The position numbers were made by a program, and so were the translations under genes. 64,000 bases of DNA from contig NBMC01000003.1 in the NCBI GenBank assembly GCA_002084805.1, positions 1 to 64,000 on the forward strand, read 5' to 3'. Of the stretch, positions 2,909 through 27,597 are shown piece after piece; the stretch's first letter is position 1, and each line of letters starts with the position of its first letter. The stretch comes from Spirochaetaceae bacterium 4572_59 (GTDB lineage: Bacteria > Spirochaetota > Spirochaetia > DSM-2461). The notes under the pieces are model-generated. The model did no database searches and was not told the origin of the DNA. It saw only the letters and a list, made by a program, of their open reading frames with translations.

Positions 2909-4543
2909 TCAGTATGGCTGAGCCAGTAAGTTATCACCAATATGCTGGATAACATAAGCGTACTGACCCGATGATTTAACAGTGATTTTTTTTTCCAGAA
3001 CAGAATTTCCAGTAATCCACTTCAATTCATACTCTCCCGGAGAGAGTTGCCATTCATAAGAGCCCGCAGAAACAGATCCAAACTGCAGAAGCTTTTTTTC
3101 CGCTCCGCCCCCGATAATCCTCTTCTCCCCATTCACCAGAAAAGTCAAGTCTTCCAGGTCATGCCGGATAGAAAGGATTCCGGGAAGTGGAATAAGCTGC
3201 ACCTGCAAATTCAGCTCATTCTGATAAAACTGCAGAGGAATATTTAGATAACGTGGATAGTATCCGGAACAGAATATTTTAAAACTATAAGCATTCCCGC
3301 TCAACAGAGACAAATCATCCACAGAACTCCAGGAATTACCGTCTTTCTGAACTAGAACAGCTGAGAAATCAGACAAATTTTCCCCTGTTAGGGCATCACT
3401 GACATAAGATCTGATATTCAGAACTTTCCTGGGGATCCGGGGGCTTTGAATCTCAAGAATAGAATCTTCTTGCTGCCGGGACATTGGTGGAAGATAGAAC
3501 AGGATCCACTGAACCTGACTTCCCCAACGAACCATAATCCTGTAATTTCCTGTTTTCAGATAGTATTTATCAGAATAATCATAATTACGGGATAGATCCA
3601 CTTCTTTAACAGACTCAAGATAACGGGATCTGTCCCTGTAGATATGCAAATCTCCTGTATGAAGAAAAGAATCATCTTCTGAGAGGATATGCAGTTGAAA
3701 AACACCCCGGCTTTCCCGGGAAAAAAAGCGATAAAAATTACCCGTATATAGAGAAAGAGAAAAGCCAGAGGCCAGCAGAAGAATAAAAATTATAAGAAAA
3801 AAGAGAAATCCCCTCCCCTTTTTTTTTACAGAAGGAGAAACAGGATGAGCGTTATGATCAGGACTTGAGCCCTTCTTTTCCCCTGTAACAGCTTCTACCA
3901 GAACCTTCAAACCCGCCAGGGCTTCGGCATCCCGGGATTTAGAAGCCGTAAGTTTCAAAAGACGCAGAATCGGCTGGACTCCTGAAAAACGAAACCCCTG
4001 GTGACGAAAAAGACTCTTCCGCACAATCCAGTACAGAAAAAAACCTTTCTCTTTAATCAGAGGAAAGAGAGAAACATGCTTACCTTTCAAGATATTCCGT
4101 CTGAGCTCATCAAGGGAAGTCCCGTCAAAGAGCTTCTCTGAGGTCAGGATTTCATACAAACTGACACCTAATGCATACACATCGGTACGCTTTGTAATTC
4201 CCGCCCTGGGTAGAAACTGCTCGGGGGCCATATAAGAGGGAGTCCCTATAGGGATAAACTCAGTGCTGCTTTCATTCTCACTTTCCAGCTGAGCAATTCC
4301 GAAATCTCCCAGTTTAACATCTCCTGTAGAAGATATAAATATATTGGATGGTTTTATATCCCGATGGATAATATTCCTTGAATGAATGTATTTAATCGCC
4401 AGACAGCAACTTGAAAGAATATAACGACTGGCACCGGAAGGCAACGGAATATTAATATAGCATGGTTTTAAAAACAGTCGAAGTAGGCATTCTCTTTTAA
4501 AAAATACACAAACTAAAAACCGCTTCCTACTGGAAGCGGCCAC
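2909..4543 (-). CDS. Ser/Thr protein kinase-like membrane protein lacking the N-lobe
   Basis: The open frame holds only the C-lobe of a Hanks-type kinase: HRDIKPSN (60-67), DFG (80-82), APE (106-108). A linker, one membrane helix (about 245-265) and an extracytoplasmic beta-rich, PEGA-like region follow. The N-lobe (glycine loop, VAxK lysine, helix C) is missing: dnaJ stops only 17 nt upstream, and the first codons lie inside the dnaJ terminator. The true start is unclear. A TTG at 4444 is the first codon that aligns with the kinase fold (just before helix E), and a promoter-like TCGACT-16-TATATT lies just before it. Most likely a 5' deletion remnant, possibly an assembly junction. Catalysis is not expected as it stands. 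Likely cotranscribed with the CBM9-like gene. Confidence 0.7.
   Translation of the reverse strand: MAASSRKRFLVCVFFKRECLLRLFLKPCYINIPLPSGASRYILSSCCLAIKYIHSRNIIHRDIKPSNIFISSTGDVKLGDFGIAQLESENESSTEFIPIGTPSYMAPEQFLPRAGITKRTDVYALGVSLYEILTSEKLFDGTSLDELRRNILKGKHVSLFPLIKEKGFFLYWIVRKSLFRHQGFRFSGVQPILRLLKLTASKSRDAEALAGLKVLVEAVTGEKKGSSPDHNAHPVSPSVKKKGRGFLFFLIIFILLLASGFSLSLYTGNFYRFFSRESRGVFQLHILSEDDSFLHTGDLHIYRDRSRYLESVKEVDLSRNYDYSDKYYLKTGNYRIMVRWGSQVQWILFYLPPMSRQQEDSILEIQSPRIPRKVLNIRSYVSDALTGENLSDFSAVLVQKDGNSWSSVDDLSLLSGNAYSFKIFCSGYYPRYLNIPLQFYQNELNLQVQLIPLPGILSIRHDLEDLTFLVNGEKRIIGGGAEKKLLQFGSVSAGSYEWQLSPGEYELKWITGNSVLEKKITVKSSGQYAYVIQHIGDNLLAQPY
4512..4540 (-). terminator. Intrinsic terminator of the grpE-dnaK-dnaJ operon
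   Basis: A perfect 8-bp stem CCGCTTCC/GGAAGCGG (4520-4527 with 4532-4539) with a 4-nt loop is followed on the minus strand by TTTTTAGTTT. It begins about 20 nt after the dnaJ stop. The start of the kinase-like open frame overlaps it, which argues that those first codons are not translated. Confidence 0.85.
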
Positions 4544-22739: not shown

Positions 22740-24269
22740 CTATCGGGCGTATTCAACTGCCCTGGTTTCGCGAATAATAGTAACCCGAATACGTCCGGGA
22801 TACTTCAGTTCGCTCTCGATTTTCTTGGCGATATCCTTGGCCAGGAGCTGAGATTTCTGATCATCAATCTTATCATTGTTAACCATAATCCGCAGTTCTC
22901 TACCCGCCTGGATAGCAAATACTTTTTCTACTCCATCAAAACTCATAGCTATTTTCTCAAGATTTTCAAGTCTTTTGATATAATTATCCAGAGTTTCACG
23001 TCGGGCACCGGGTCTGGCTGCAGATATAGCATCTGCTACCTGAACGATAATTCCTTCAATGGAAGTAATCTCTATATCATTGTGGTGAGCACCAACTGCG
23101 TTAACAATCCTTGAATCCTCACCCATTCTTTTACAGAGCTCTGCACCAAGTTCAGCATGATTACCGTCACCATCGGTCTCAAGACCTTTACCAATATCGT
23201 GAAGCAATGCTCCTCTCTTGGCAATTTCCCGATCTGCGCCGACTTCTGCAGAAATCATCCCTGCAATAACCGCAACTTCCTTGGAATGTGATAGAACATT
23301 CTGTCCATAACTGGTTCTGAAATGAAGTCGACCAAGAGCCCGGATACCTTCCGGTCTGATGTTATGTATCCCCAGATCAAAGAGAACCTTCTCCCCTTCC
23401 TCATAGATGGTTTGACTGATCTCTTTTGTCACTTTCTGAACTACTTCTTCGATTCGGGCCGGATGAATCCGTCCGTCAGCGATAAGCCGTTCCAATGCAA
23501 TTTTGGCTATTACCTTACGGATAGGATCAAAACATGAAATAACAACAGCTTCAGGAGTATCATCAATAATGATATCCACACCGGTTAATGTTTCGAGTGT
23601 CCGGATGTTCCGGCCTTCCCTCCCGATAATACGACCTTTCATTTCATCATTCGGCAAGCTAACTGAGGTTACAGTTATCTCGGTACTGACATCTGTAGCC
23701 AGTCTCTGAATGGTAGTAATAATAATATCCCGAGCCCTTTTATCGGCTGTAAGATTAGCTTCCTGCTCAATTTTATTAACAAGAGCCTGAGCATCATGTT
23801 TGGCTTCATTCTCCAAACTTTGAATTATTAATTTCTTCGCCTCGTCTGTGGTCAGACCGGAGATTTTCTCCAGCTCCGCCTGCCAGCGGATTTCTTCATC
23901 AGCAACAGTTTCTTCTCTTTTTTCAAGAGACTTCTCAATATCCGAAATAGAGAACATTTTCTTTTCAAGAGTAGCAGATTTTTTATCAAGATTATCTTCT
24001 TTCTGCTGCACTCTTCTTTCATATTTCTGAACTTCGTTTCTTCTATCCCGGTTTTCCCGTTCAAGCTGACGACGTTCCTTCATAATCTGATTCTGTGCAT
24101 CAAGAAGAATACTTTTCTTTTCCTGTTCTGCGTCTTTAACTGCGTCCTGTTTCAATCTTAAAGATTTCTGCTCTGAAGAAGAGAGCTGGTATCTGGCATA
24201 TAGCCATCTAATTGTCCAACCTAGAAAAATTCCAACGAGGGGAAGAGTTACAATATAGACATTAGCCAT
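22740..24269 (-). CDS. rny: Ribonuclease Y
   Basis: Membrane-anchored endoribonuclease that starts mRNA decay. Domains in order: N-terminal membrane helix (IVTLPLVGIFLGWTI), long coiled coil (about 25-190), KH domain (MKGRIIGREGRNIRTLE) and HD domain (LLHDIGKG). The start is the ATG at 24269 (protein M-A-N-V-Y), preceded by GGGGGAA. The in-frame extension upstream (to 24338) is excluded because a perfect promoter lies in it. From this start it has 509 residues, the normal size. Confidence 0.96.
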   Translation of the reverse strand: MANVYIVTLPLVGIFLGWTIRWLYARYQLSSSEQKSLRLKQDAVKDAEQEKKSILLDAQNQIMKERRQLERENRDRRNEVQKYERRVQQKEDNLDKKSATLEKKMFSISDIEKSLEKREETVADEEIRWQAELEKISGLTTDEAKKLIIQSLENEAKHDAQALVNKIEQEANLTADKRARDIIITTIQRLATDVSTEITVTSVSLPNDEMKGRIIGREGRNIRTLETLTGVDIIIDDTPEAVVISCFDPIRKVIAKIALERLIADGRIHPARIEEVVQKVTKEISQTIYEEGEKVLFDLGIHNIRPEGIRALGRLHFRTSYGQNVLSHSKEVAVIAGMISAEVGADREIAKRGALLHDIGKGLETDGDGNHAELGAELCKRMGEDSRIVNAVGAHHNDIEITSIEGIIVQVADAISAARPGARRETLDNYIKRLENLEKIAMSFDGVEKVFAIQAGRELRIMVNNDKIDDQKSQLLAKDIAKKIESELKYPGRIRVTIIRETRAVEYAR

Positions 24270-24300
24270 ATTTCCCCCTAAATTTACAAAGATGTTTATG

Positions 24301-24328
24301 ATTATATAAGTAACTATCCATTTGTCAA
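24301..24328 (-). promoter_or_regulatory. Consensus promoter of rny-ymdB-tlyA
   Basis: TTGACA (24323-24328) and TATAAT (24301-24306), both perfect, separated by 16 bp. A leader of about 25 nt leads to the GGGGGAA ribosome binding site of rny. Confidence 0.85.
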
Positions 24329-24390
24329 GTGAAACCATTTTTTAACAATTCTTTAAAGAATCTCTTATTATGGTTATTTTAATATTAATT

Positions 24391-27300
24391 TTATGAGATT
24401 TTTTCCATAAAACAAGAACTAGGATCCTTAAATCCAAGGTAAATAAAATCAAAACTATGTGTGCTTTTTAAAGGAATAAAAACCCCAGTATTGAATAAAC
24501 TGAAATCCAAATGTTCAAAATAAGAATTGTAATCAGATTTCTTTCTATCCCGGATATAAACAACCTGATCATCCTTTAACAAATCAAATAATTTTTTCCC
24601 CATTGTATCTGACCGAAGAGAGTCTACACCCTCTTCGTTAATACCTATAGAGTGTACTGGTAACACATTACCATCACTCAACTCATACAAAACACCACTT
24701 AAAGCATCAAACTCTCTGGTTAGATCTCGTAGCGCTTTCAGAAGTCCCAGAGGACCTTTTTTATATGAGTCTCTAAAATGATCAAAATCCAGACCTTCCG
24801 GAACAAAACGGAGTCGACCATGCTCAGTTATTTCAGAACGATCTTCATCTTCATTATAGTCTTCATCATTACCAAGAGGAAGTAAATCATCAGTCATTGT
24901 CTGTATAAGACCAGCTATTCCGGAGCTTTCATTATCAGCAGTGACAGATTCATCAGAACTCATAAGCAGAGTACTATTATCAGCAGATGTAGTTTCAGAG
25001 TAGAAATAATCGGATAAAGAAATAAAGTCGGAGTAATCTATTATCAGCTGAGCAGAGATTTCTTCCAGTTCTTCCAGTTCTTCCAGTTCTTCCAGTTCTT
25101 CCAATTCTTCCAATTCTTCCAATTCTTCCAATTCTTCCAATTCTTCCAATTCTTCCAGTTCTTCCAATTCTTCCAGTTCTTCCTGTTCTTCCTGTTCTTC
25201 CTGTTCTTCCTGTTCTTCCTGTTCTTCCTGTTCTTCCAGTTCTTCCAATTCTTCCTGTTCTTCCAGGGATGATTCATTTTTTATATGATCTGTTGTATCA
25301 ATGTTTTTTCTTTTAGATCCATCACCCATTTCGTCCTCACTTGTTATAGCCTCAGAATCAGGAGAAGGATTTCTTCCAAACGGCCCAGGAATACCACGGG
25401 CCCCATAGTGTTCCCATGGACTAATTATATCTAATTCGATAAGCTTATCTGTATCATGATTATTACTGTTAGTTTCCTGATCAATAATCATAGTTGCATT
25501 AGATGGGATAGATTTAGGAACATCTACACTATTCAGTTCCATACTTTTTTGTGCTATCAAACTATAATTAAGGTTATATCCATCACACAGATCCAAAACA
25601 TGTATTGATTCAAAATTATCAGAATTTATTTCTATTAAATCATATACATCAAGACCTTCATCATAATCCGGCAGATACTCCAGTTTTTCAAAAAGTGTTT
25701 CTTCCACTAATGGGGAAATTTCAGGAAAAACTTCTAGTTCTTCAAGTTCGTCATCCTGAGAGGAGTTCATATCGCTAACTAAATTATTGTATCGGTTTTC
25801 TAGATTCTTAGATATTTCATCAACATCCATGGATGCAATCAATTCATCTATATTAAAATCGATACTTTTATCATCCAGATTAATTTCTAATTCAGGCGTT
25901 TGATTTGACTTATTTTTAAACTCAGCATTGTCTTCTACATTATTGATCTCACCCGAAACTTCAATGCTTTCAATCGCTTCAGTTTCAATTGGTTCTACGG
26001 AAGCTTCAAGTTCCTCAAGTTCTTCCAGCTCCTCAAGTTCTTCCAGCTCCTCAAGTTCCTCAAGTTCCTCAAGTTCTTCCAAGTCATCAGAATCCCCTGA
26101 CTCATCAAGCTCCTCTACGTCAACTGGCCTACCTTGAACTTGAACGGCTTCATCTTCCAGCTCATCAAGTTCTTCCAGCTCATCAAGTTCTTCCAAGTCA
26201 TCAGAATCCTCTGACTCATCAAGCTCCTCTACGTCAACTGGCTGCATTGGCCTCGCAGCAGCTGGAATGGCTTTGTGTAAGGACTGAGCCGAAAGATTCT
26301 TCACGTCTGCATTTTCAATTGTAAAATGCGCATCAGTAAGAGCCGACTTGATCATCTGCTCCATATCACTTACAGAAAATTGAGGTTCATCGGGCTCCTG
26401 AATCTTTTTACTCTTTAAAACCTGGATAATCTCTACCCATCTACTGTCAATAAGGGAATCAATCTTCTCTTTATTATTTTCTTTATATTTTACAGAAAAG
26501 CCCTTGAGTAATTCTTTCTTGACTTCTTCTTTACGAGATGCAAACTCTGATTCATAGCTTTCCCAATCAAGAGTTTCTTGTGCATCAATCAACTCTTTCA
26601 AAAATGTCAGTTGAAATTTTCTAACTTTCTGCCTGAGGGCAAGATCGTTATCCTGCTTTAAATTAAATAAAAGAAAAAGAAGCAGAAAAACAGTTACAAA
26701 AAGAGTCCCAAGCAAGAGAATCTTATATTCAATACCAAGCTCAAGTTCATCACCGGACACGGCCATAATAGATGGCTTGCCATTTTCCGGAACTTCCTGA
26801 ATAAGATAATATTCACTCTCATTCATCGCTGCAATATGCTGAATATAGTTCCCCTGTCCTGCATTTGTAATAAACTGACTAAGATTATCATTTAATAATT
26901 TTTTTTGACTTGAAGAGAGGTTATAGAGTATGGTTTCTGAATTTAAAAGCTGCAGGCGATCAATATCTGATACACCACCATTTCTAAAAAGATGATCTTG
27001 CATTCCGTTGATGGAAAAATAAAAAACGACAGTCCCCTTGAACAACCCGTATTGATCAAAAGCAGGGAAGAAATAAAGTATACGCTTTGATAAATGATCA
27101 TACTCATAGCGGCCATCACTATTTTCTGATTTAATGAAAGAAAGATCTTCATTATAGTCTGGACTGTTTTTCCAGAGTTTATAGAAAATACGGTTAGAGT
27201 TTCTCTGCCTGACATCCTGATCATCAGAACTATAAAGAATAGATAAGCCTTTATCATCAATAATTTTCACAGACTGAAAACCTATTAACTCATCTTTGAG

Positions 27301-27597
27301 ACGGCCGAAAAGGTTTATTCTTTCATTGATGTCTGATTTTTCCTGGGTAGGGTCATATACATTCTTTAAAAAATTCAAGCTCAATAGGTTTTCAAGTCTT
27401 GTAAGGTTAGCTTCATGGTAGTCCTGAACCAGATGTTGATTATCCCGTAATCTATTTTGTTGATTTTCAATGATATGCTGACTGAAATATTGACTTTCAA
27501 GATAATGAAAGAAACCTGCGAACGCAACAAAGCTAAAGACACTGACAAGAAGCAACGAGACAATTAATGAAATTAAAATTTTATTTATTTGTCGCAT
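24391..27597 (-). CDS. Large membrane protein with sensor-like ends and hyper-acidic repeats, unknown
   Basis: I do not recognise this 1068-residue protein as a whole. Visible in order: membrane helix (about 8-30), an extracytoplasmic domain of about 260 residues resembling a Cache sensor, a second membrane helix (about 290-312), a cytoplasmic helical region, then several hundred residues of extremely acidic low complexity dominated by EEL and EEQ triplets and by VDVEELDES blocks, and finally a GAF-like domain (about 925-1068). No histidine kinase, GGDEF, EAL or methyl-accepting domain is visible. The ATG at 27597 has AAAGG upstream but follows the rplQ terminator by only 15 nt, leaving no room for a promoter between them. 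The repeats are DNA tandem arrays, so copy number may vary. Confidence 0.7.
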   Translation of the reverse strand: MRQINKILISLIVSLLLVSVFSFVAFAGFFHYLESQYFSQHIIENQQNRLRDNQHLVQDYHEANLTRLENLLSLNFLKNVYDPTQEKSDINERINLFGRLKDELIGFQSVKIIDDKGLSILYSSDDQDVRQRNSNRIFYKLWKNSPDYNEDLSFIKSENSDGRYEYDHLSKRILYFFPAFDQYGLFKGTVVFYFSINGMQDHLFRNGGVSDIDRLQLLNSETILYNLSSSQKKLLNDNLSQFITNAGQGNYIQHIAAMNESEYYLIQEVPENGKPSIMAVSGDELELGIEYKILLLGTLFVTVFLLLFLLFNLKQDNDLALRQKVRKFQLTFLKELIDAQETLDWESYESEFASRKEEVKKELLKGFSVKYKENNKEKIDSLIDSRWVEIIQVLKSKKIQEPDEPQFSVSDMEQMIKSALTDAHFTIENADVKNLSAQSLHKAIPAAARPMQPVDVEELDESEDSDDLEELDELEELDELEDEAVQVQGRPVDVEELDESGDSDDLEELEELEELEELEELEELEELEELEASVEPIETEAIESIEVSGEINNVEDNAEFKNKSNQTPELEINLDDKSIDFNIDELIASMDVDEISKNLENRYNNLVSDMNSSQDDELEELEVFPEISPLVEETLFEKLEYLPDYDEGLDVYDLIEINSDNFESIHVLDLCDGYNLNYSLIAQKSMELNSVDVPKSIPSNATMIIDQETNSNNHDTDKLIELDIISPWEHYGARGIPGPFGRNPSPDSEAITSEDEMGDGSKRKNIDTTDHIKNESSLEEQEELEELEEQEEQEEQEEQEEQEEQEELEELEELEELEELEELEELEELEELEELEELEELEELEEISAQLIIDYSDFISLSDYFYSETTSADNSTLLMSSDESVTADNESSGIAGLIQTMTDDLLPLGNDEDYNEDEDRSEITEHGRLRFVPEGLDFDHFRDSYKKGPLGLLKALRDLTREFDALSGVLYELSDGNVLPVHSIGINEEGVDSLRSDTMGKKLFDLLKDDQVVYIRDRKKSDYNSYFEHLDFSLFNTGVFIPLKSTHSFDFIYLGFKDPSSCFMEKIS
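25060..25266 (-). repeat. About 23-copy 9-bp tandem repeat inside a coding sequence
   Basis: On the plus strand the unit is TTCTTCCAG, with variants TTCTTCCAA and TTCTTCCTG, running without gaps. In the sense frame the units encode Glu-Glu-Leu or Glu-Glu-Gln. Variant types are clustered (a block of CAA units, a block of CTG units), as expected from slippage or unequal exchange. Because the unit is 9 bp, copy changes keep the frame. Confidence 0.95.
26005..26080 (-). repeat. Second 9-bp EEL-type repeat block
   Basis: A shorter array of TTCCTCAAG, TTCTTCCAG and CTCCTCAAG units coding for Glu/Leu triplets in the same protein. It is more degenerate than the block at 25060. Confidence 0.8.
26071..26242 (-). 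repeat. 58-bp near-identical direct repeat pair
   Basis: Copies at 26071-26128 and 26185-26242 differ at one base. They are offset by 114 bp, an exact 38 codons, and both encode the PVDVEELDES-(E/G)-DSDDLEEL segment. An in-frame segmental duplication within the acidic protein gene. Confidence 0.9.

Follow-up and report, generated by a model that had tools for sequence, protein, structure and literature searches.

A near-perfect tandem repeat within an open reading frame raises the question of which properties of the encoded protein are kept as the repeat DNA is copied and replaced. We met this question in the window (the whole stretch of 64,000 nucleotides analysed here), whose host is a relative of Oceanispirochaeta. 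The gene concerned (24391..27597, minus strand; delineated from its ORF, its orthologs and gene order) encodes a 1068-aa membrane protein with a predicted dCache-like sensor, an acidic repeat linker and a GAF-like domain. An initial annotation of the window had described a membrane protein whose ends are sensor-like and which carries a 9-bp array of about 23 units. It proposed that recent slippage had produced the array and that copy change would alter the length of an acidic linker without switching the gene off.

Results

Anatomy and recency of the distal array

Analysis by TRF placed the distal array at 25060-25266 (minus strand), the same coordinates as those initially annotated, with a period of 9, 23.0 copies, 94% matches, 0 indels and a score of 309. 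The array, which was further defined by unit order and clustering, encodes (Glu-Glu-Leu/Gln)n over aa 778-846. The coding (minus) strand contains 22 full units, each consisting of GAAGAA followed by CTG (A), TTG (B) or CAG (C). These are ordered C B A CCCCCC A B A BBBBBB AAAA, with CTG-GAA-GAA directly before them. The clustering of variant types that had been noted initially was reproduced statistically, as the units form 9 runs whereas permutation gives a mean of 15.6 (p=0.003). GAA accounts for all Glu codons within the array (46/46) as compared to 78/113 in this gene outside it. Where the same residue recurs one period later, its codon is also the same in 57 of 62 cases, with about 35 expected, and the same-codon rate one period apart is 0.82 against an expected 0.49. 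Together, the exclusive use of GAA, the clustered variants and the codon agreement indicate recent copying at the DNA level and not merely selection for acidic residues. The distal array is the youngest-looking part of the linker. Glutamine at the hydrophobic position is nearly confined to the window sequence when compared with units across the class, and the simplest account of the seven Gln units is a single CTG-to-CAG change that was then copied.

At -0.67 net charge per residue and without any Lys or Arg, the array agrees with its description as hyper-acidic. Its near-identical in-frame tandem units are those of a putative coding VNTR (minisatellite), and the slippage-type, in-frame 9-bp expansion that had been suggested is supported. 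The frame-shifting copy change of a phase-variable on/off contingency locus was not found. The units here are 9 bp, and the best arrays across the family have periods divisible by 3 in 41 of 41 cases. Uniqueness within the assembly was judged by matches to the degenerate pattern (GAR GAR NTN)x4; these were confined to the sensor-like gene in the 3.29-Mb assembly, and a reversed-pattern control gave 0.

Domain organization of the protein

The protein is laid out as a TM helix, a dCache-like domain, another TM helix, cytosolic helices, an acidic linker of roughly 500 aa and a GAF-like domain. The predicted periplasmic dCache-like sensor domain (approximately aa 32-288; 26734..27504, minus strand) was assigned through AlphaFold2, Foldseek and Pfam matches in orthologs. 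An AlphaFold2 model built with 38 orthologs gave a mean pLDDT of 84 for the N-terminal part, and a Foldseek search with the N-domain model retrieved the dCache domains 3lic, 6e0a and 4wy9 at E ~1e-4. Pfam dCache_1 was detected in 9 of the 38 orthologs (best 3.9e-9); a Pfam scan of the window protein itself did not match it. With a double PAS-like fold modelled outside the cytoplasm and a TM helix on either side of it, the protein would belong among dCache membrane sensors. Pfam and NCBIfam scans detected no kinase, MCP/chemoreceptor, cyclase or GGDEF/EAL output domain. The second transmembrane helix (approximately aa 289-312; 26662..26733, minus strand) corresponds to helix H289-312 of the model and is followed by basic residues, which take the form of a KKKIKKFQ-type motif in the closest relatives. 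Based on these residues and the positive-inside rule, the linker is predicted to lie in the cytoplasm. Directly after the helix comes a conserved cytosolic helical segment (approximately aa 313-400; 26398..26661, minus strand), which is helical in the model and includes Trp387, a residue nearly invariant among orthologs.

The acidic linker (approximately aa 421-920; 24838..26337, minus strand) was delineated by composition. It holds 172 D/E residues against 20 K/R, giving a net charge per residue of -0.30, and this composition suggests that it is disordered. Beyond the array initially annotated, it contains two more acidic arrays of a more degenerate kind. The array at 26004..26084 (minus strand; aa 506-531) encodes EEL repeats with mixed GAA/GAG codons and was resolved by TRF both as 9 bp x 7.9 (80%) and as 18 bp x 4.4 (88%). 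The first proximal 18-bp array lies at 26153..26229 (minus strand), encodes an ELDELE-type repeat and was scored by TRF as 18 bp x 2.8 to 4.1. Opposite the proximal repeats, an antisense ORF of 111 aa with a high content of Pro, Gln and Leu (25989-26324, plus strand) is very likely an artefact. A PADLOC match to MTase_II falls inside the acidic linker and looks like an artefact of composition.

The C-terminal GAF-like domain (approximately aa 935-1068; 24394..24795, minus strand) was assigned from the model, Foldseek and a profile match. Its model has a pLDDT mostly above 90, and Foldseek returned the GAF domains 3eea and 2w3h (E 4e-4 to 8e-4) with a TM-score by target of about 0.5. A profile comparison added a weak match to 3ci6, the GAF domain of PtsP (E 0.0044). 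The modelled GAF fold would make the domain a member of the GAF superfamily, and since Pfam GAF_2 was matched in a single family member (at 0.066), the relationship is a distant one. Weak Pfam/NCBIfam matches to KbaA and AggPromo_Cterm were below the cut-off. The predicted domains at either side of the linker are in accord with the sensor-like ends that had been ascribed to this membrane protein.

Acidic repeats across the class

To a sample of 47 full-length sequences, the window included, we applied a TRF score of at least 100 as the definition of a strong array. Strong linker arrays are present in 41 of the 47 sequences, and the period of the best array is a multiple of 9 bp in 37 of these 41, most often 18. 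Tandem repeats make up 10.7% of the gene, as opposed to 0.13% of the DNA that flanks it. The pattern is class-wide, which the initial annotation had not foreseen: relatives carry different repeats in the matching part of the gene, and common to all of them is a three-residue acidic rhythm. The class-wide unit is [L/V/A/I]-[E/D]-[E/D], with K/R and aromatic residues almost nil. At lag 3, the frequency with which hydrophobic residues recur is 0.61, against a base of 0.25. Outside the detected arrays this value is 0.41 against approximately 0.15 at lags 1, 2 and 4, and the rhythm therefore appears to outlast individual arrays. Four of the 47 orthologs, the probable Treponema pallidum one among them, have an acidic linker without an array, which indicates that the repeat is dispensable. 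Proline or glycine is present in 32 of 40 arrays, which argues against one continuous helix. A coiled coil was rejected on the same grounds, and also because the strict three-residue period is unlike heptads or hendecads.

Turnover between close relatives

Turnover was examined in pairs of sister genomes, with one genome per species. In the close pairs compared, either unit sequence or copy number differs. The N-domains of L053 and L099 share 95.9% DNA identity without gaps; both genes have a 36-bp unit, in 16.5 and 14.7 copies respectively, and their arrays have 3 common 36-mers among approximately 460. The two ends of the gene are 93.3% and 96.7% identical between L055 and L056, whose 18-bp unit is present in 11.3 and 17.4 copies respectively. 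L050 and L051 have equal copy number (31.6 each) and have 36 unit-mers in common, of 324 and 137. Length variation, which had been anticipated for this array, is thus seen between relatives, and identical copy number and unit order was not what sister genes 93-97% identical outside the array displayed.

Draft contigs end inside the gene in 13 of 40 genomes, where 6.3 would be expected from contig counts (P=0.003). Such breaks fit the presence of repeats and are no proof of polymorphism. Runs of N were observed in or after the array of L069 and L113. In L113 the repeat changes reading frame before the N gap, which may stem from faulty assembly or be a genuine frameshift.

Orthologs and gene neighbourhood

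Orthologs were recovered in 40 of 60 relatives, and the N-terminal part was matched in 41 of 61 genomes when the window's own is counted. Sampling across the phylum gave an ortholog in 64 of 296 genomes, nearly all of them from the same class. A search of genome contigs with the window N-domain gave no match; a genus-level alignment search of genome contigs matched two MAG records. The gene comes after rplQ in 36 of the 39 ortholog loci scanned for neighbours, and rny-ymdB-tlyA is next downstream in most loci where the contig extends far enough. In the window, these conserved neighbours are rplQ (ribosomal protein L17; 27722..28120, minus strand) upstream and rny (RNase Y; 22740..24338, minus strand) downstream, both assigned from gene order across relatives; the true start of rny is probably downstream of the listed ATG. 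We considered whether ortholog-negative genomes might hide a divergent copy between rplQ and rny. This was rejected, since in several families rny comes immediately after rplQ and the gene is missing from this position. Among the Treponema-type loci that we examined, the gene adjoins neither rplQ nor rny.

The Treponema-like group of orthologs has no GAF domain and often keeps the array, a further feature beyond the initial annotation. The L097 ortholog, located at 645,987-647,804 of a 1,139,633-bp chromosome whose size matches T. pallidum, has 605 aa and neither a GAF domain nor a tandem array. This T. pallidum ortholog is probably TP0597, going by its 605-aa length and approximate position and not by comparison of the sequences. 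TP0597 has been listed at 605 aa (PMC3373638), and its detection in proteomes has been reported (PMC12687308).

A conserved C-terminal peptide of the FKxLVDSVL type ends the GAF-less orthologs L053, L097-L106, L109, L114 and L115, and a motif of the same type occurs just before the GAF domain in L050. Judged by its sequence, it looks like a docking peptide. In L050, the gene starting at 4001 has a single in-frame TAA at codon 103, within the N-terminal domain, which may be a mutation or a sequencing error. Tandem repeats of 15/30/45/60 bp were observed just upstream of the gene and after the rplQ match in L035 (3707-3857) and L058 (3294-3446; both in gene orientation), perhaps in a C-terminal extension of rplQ.

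Discussion

Our favoured explanation, to which we assign a probability of roughly 0.55, is that the linker serves this sensor-like protein as a cytosolic tether, anionic and disordered, and that the linker DNA turns over in frame while charge, rhythm and reading frame are kept. The dCache-like domain would probably sense something in the periplasm, and the signal would pass through the second TM helix to the helical segment. The linker may then hold a C-terminal element off the membrane, this element being the GAF-like domain in the window protein and the FKxLVDSVL peptide in GAF-less relatives. Linker DNA would grow and shrink by in-frame slippage or unequal recombination. Since the unit length is almost always a multiple of 9 bp, replacement of the sequence in one lineage after another would leave frame, charge and the three-residue [hydrophobic]-[acidic]-[acidic] rhythm intact. 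Disorder, the tether role, the cytosolic location, sensing and the mutational mechanism are all inferred here. A pure GAF tether is too narrow a description, since the array is kept in GAF-less orthologs and must be more than that. The strict hydrophobic rhythm also exceeds what a plain spacer needs, and this counts against a tether.

For that last reason, a binding surface is a serious rival, even if we consider it an unlikely one. The acidic repeat could act as a multivalent surface on which a basic partner docks, such as RNase Y or a ribosomal or nucleoid protein, with copy number setting the valency. Such a role would explain why a hydrophobic residue appears in every triplet, also outside the arrays, and why the array survives where the GAF domain does not; the conserved neighbours rplQ and rny would likewise make sense. 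However, the hydrophobic position is permissive, accepting L, V, A, I and P as well as Q in the window, which is a poor fit to specific recognition, and the Treponema-type loci examined do not have the gene next to either of the neighbours in question.

Two other explanations seem improbable to us, and about equally so. One treats the array as a contingency-type length dial, in which copy number changes rapidly within a population and selection acts on variants of linker length. The near-perfect array with its clustered variants, the length differences between sister genomes and the excess of assemblies broken within the gene would all suit such a dial. Yet contig breaks reflect repeats and not polymorphism, and the array mixes unit types, which usually slow slippage. 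The other regards the repeats as a neutral by-product, with Glu-rich repeat DNA expanding by itself in a weakly constrained linker whose sole need is an intact frame. Strong turnover of unit sequence and length, together with the four orthologs that have no array, is what a neutral process would leave. It would account poorly for a charge and a three-residue rhythm that recur across many families despite differing DNA units, and that rhythm is also found outside the arrays. Moreover, the EE[hydrophobic] pattern occurs at no other locus in the genome, and the folded domains are conserved, the N-terminal side in all orthologs and the C-terminal side in most.

Returning to the tether, its extension to the whole class is a proposal that we hold at slightly less than even odds. 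It states that selection holds the three-residue acidic rhythm and the net charge and not sequence or length, with repeats regenerated time after time in one gene. The linker of this spirochaetal sensor-scaffold would then be a polyelectrolyte that renews itself.

Coding repeats in spirochaetes and acidic linkers of conserved composition are both already known. The arp and tp0470 genes of T. pallidum are, like the window gene, spirochaetal genes with in-frame charged coding repeats; their repeats are length-variable and are left out of most genome assemblies (PMC9531955). In contrast to the window gene, they are proposed to encode periplasmic proteins with TPR or SPOR domains and no dCache or GAF domain, they are described in that work only from T. 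pallidum, and the tp0470 units are 24 bp and encode EAEEARRK, positive charges included (PMC9531955). The PopZ protein of Caulobacterales has an acidic disordered linker of conserved composition (net charge per residue -0.28), and both the length and the charge of this linker tune function (PMC9512792). The linker studied here resembles it in that acidic composition is conserved. PopZ differs in that it is the scaffold of a condensate, its linker is proline-rich and conserved in length, and it has neither tandem arrays nor a sensor domain. Finally, dCache histidine kinases and chemoreceptors share the N-terminal TM-dCache-TM layout and the fold match, whereas the cytosolic part of the window protein consists of an acidic repeat linker and a GAF-like domain. 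Within the literature that we covered, which is incomplete, we found no account of this protein family, nor of any class-wide repeat whose rhythm is retained as the underlying DNA is exchanged.

These results carry a warning that assemblies from short reads are prone to break within this sensor-like gene. They also point to an often syntenic spirochaetal membrane protein with TP0597 as its probable ortholog in T. pallidum. The approximately 40 homologous linkers form a natural series in which length and sequence vary and charge and rhythm are common to all, and which is suited to testing selection on the bulk properties of disordered regions.
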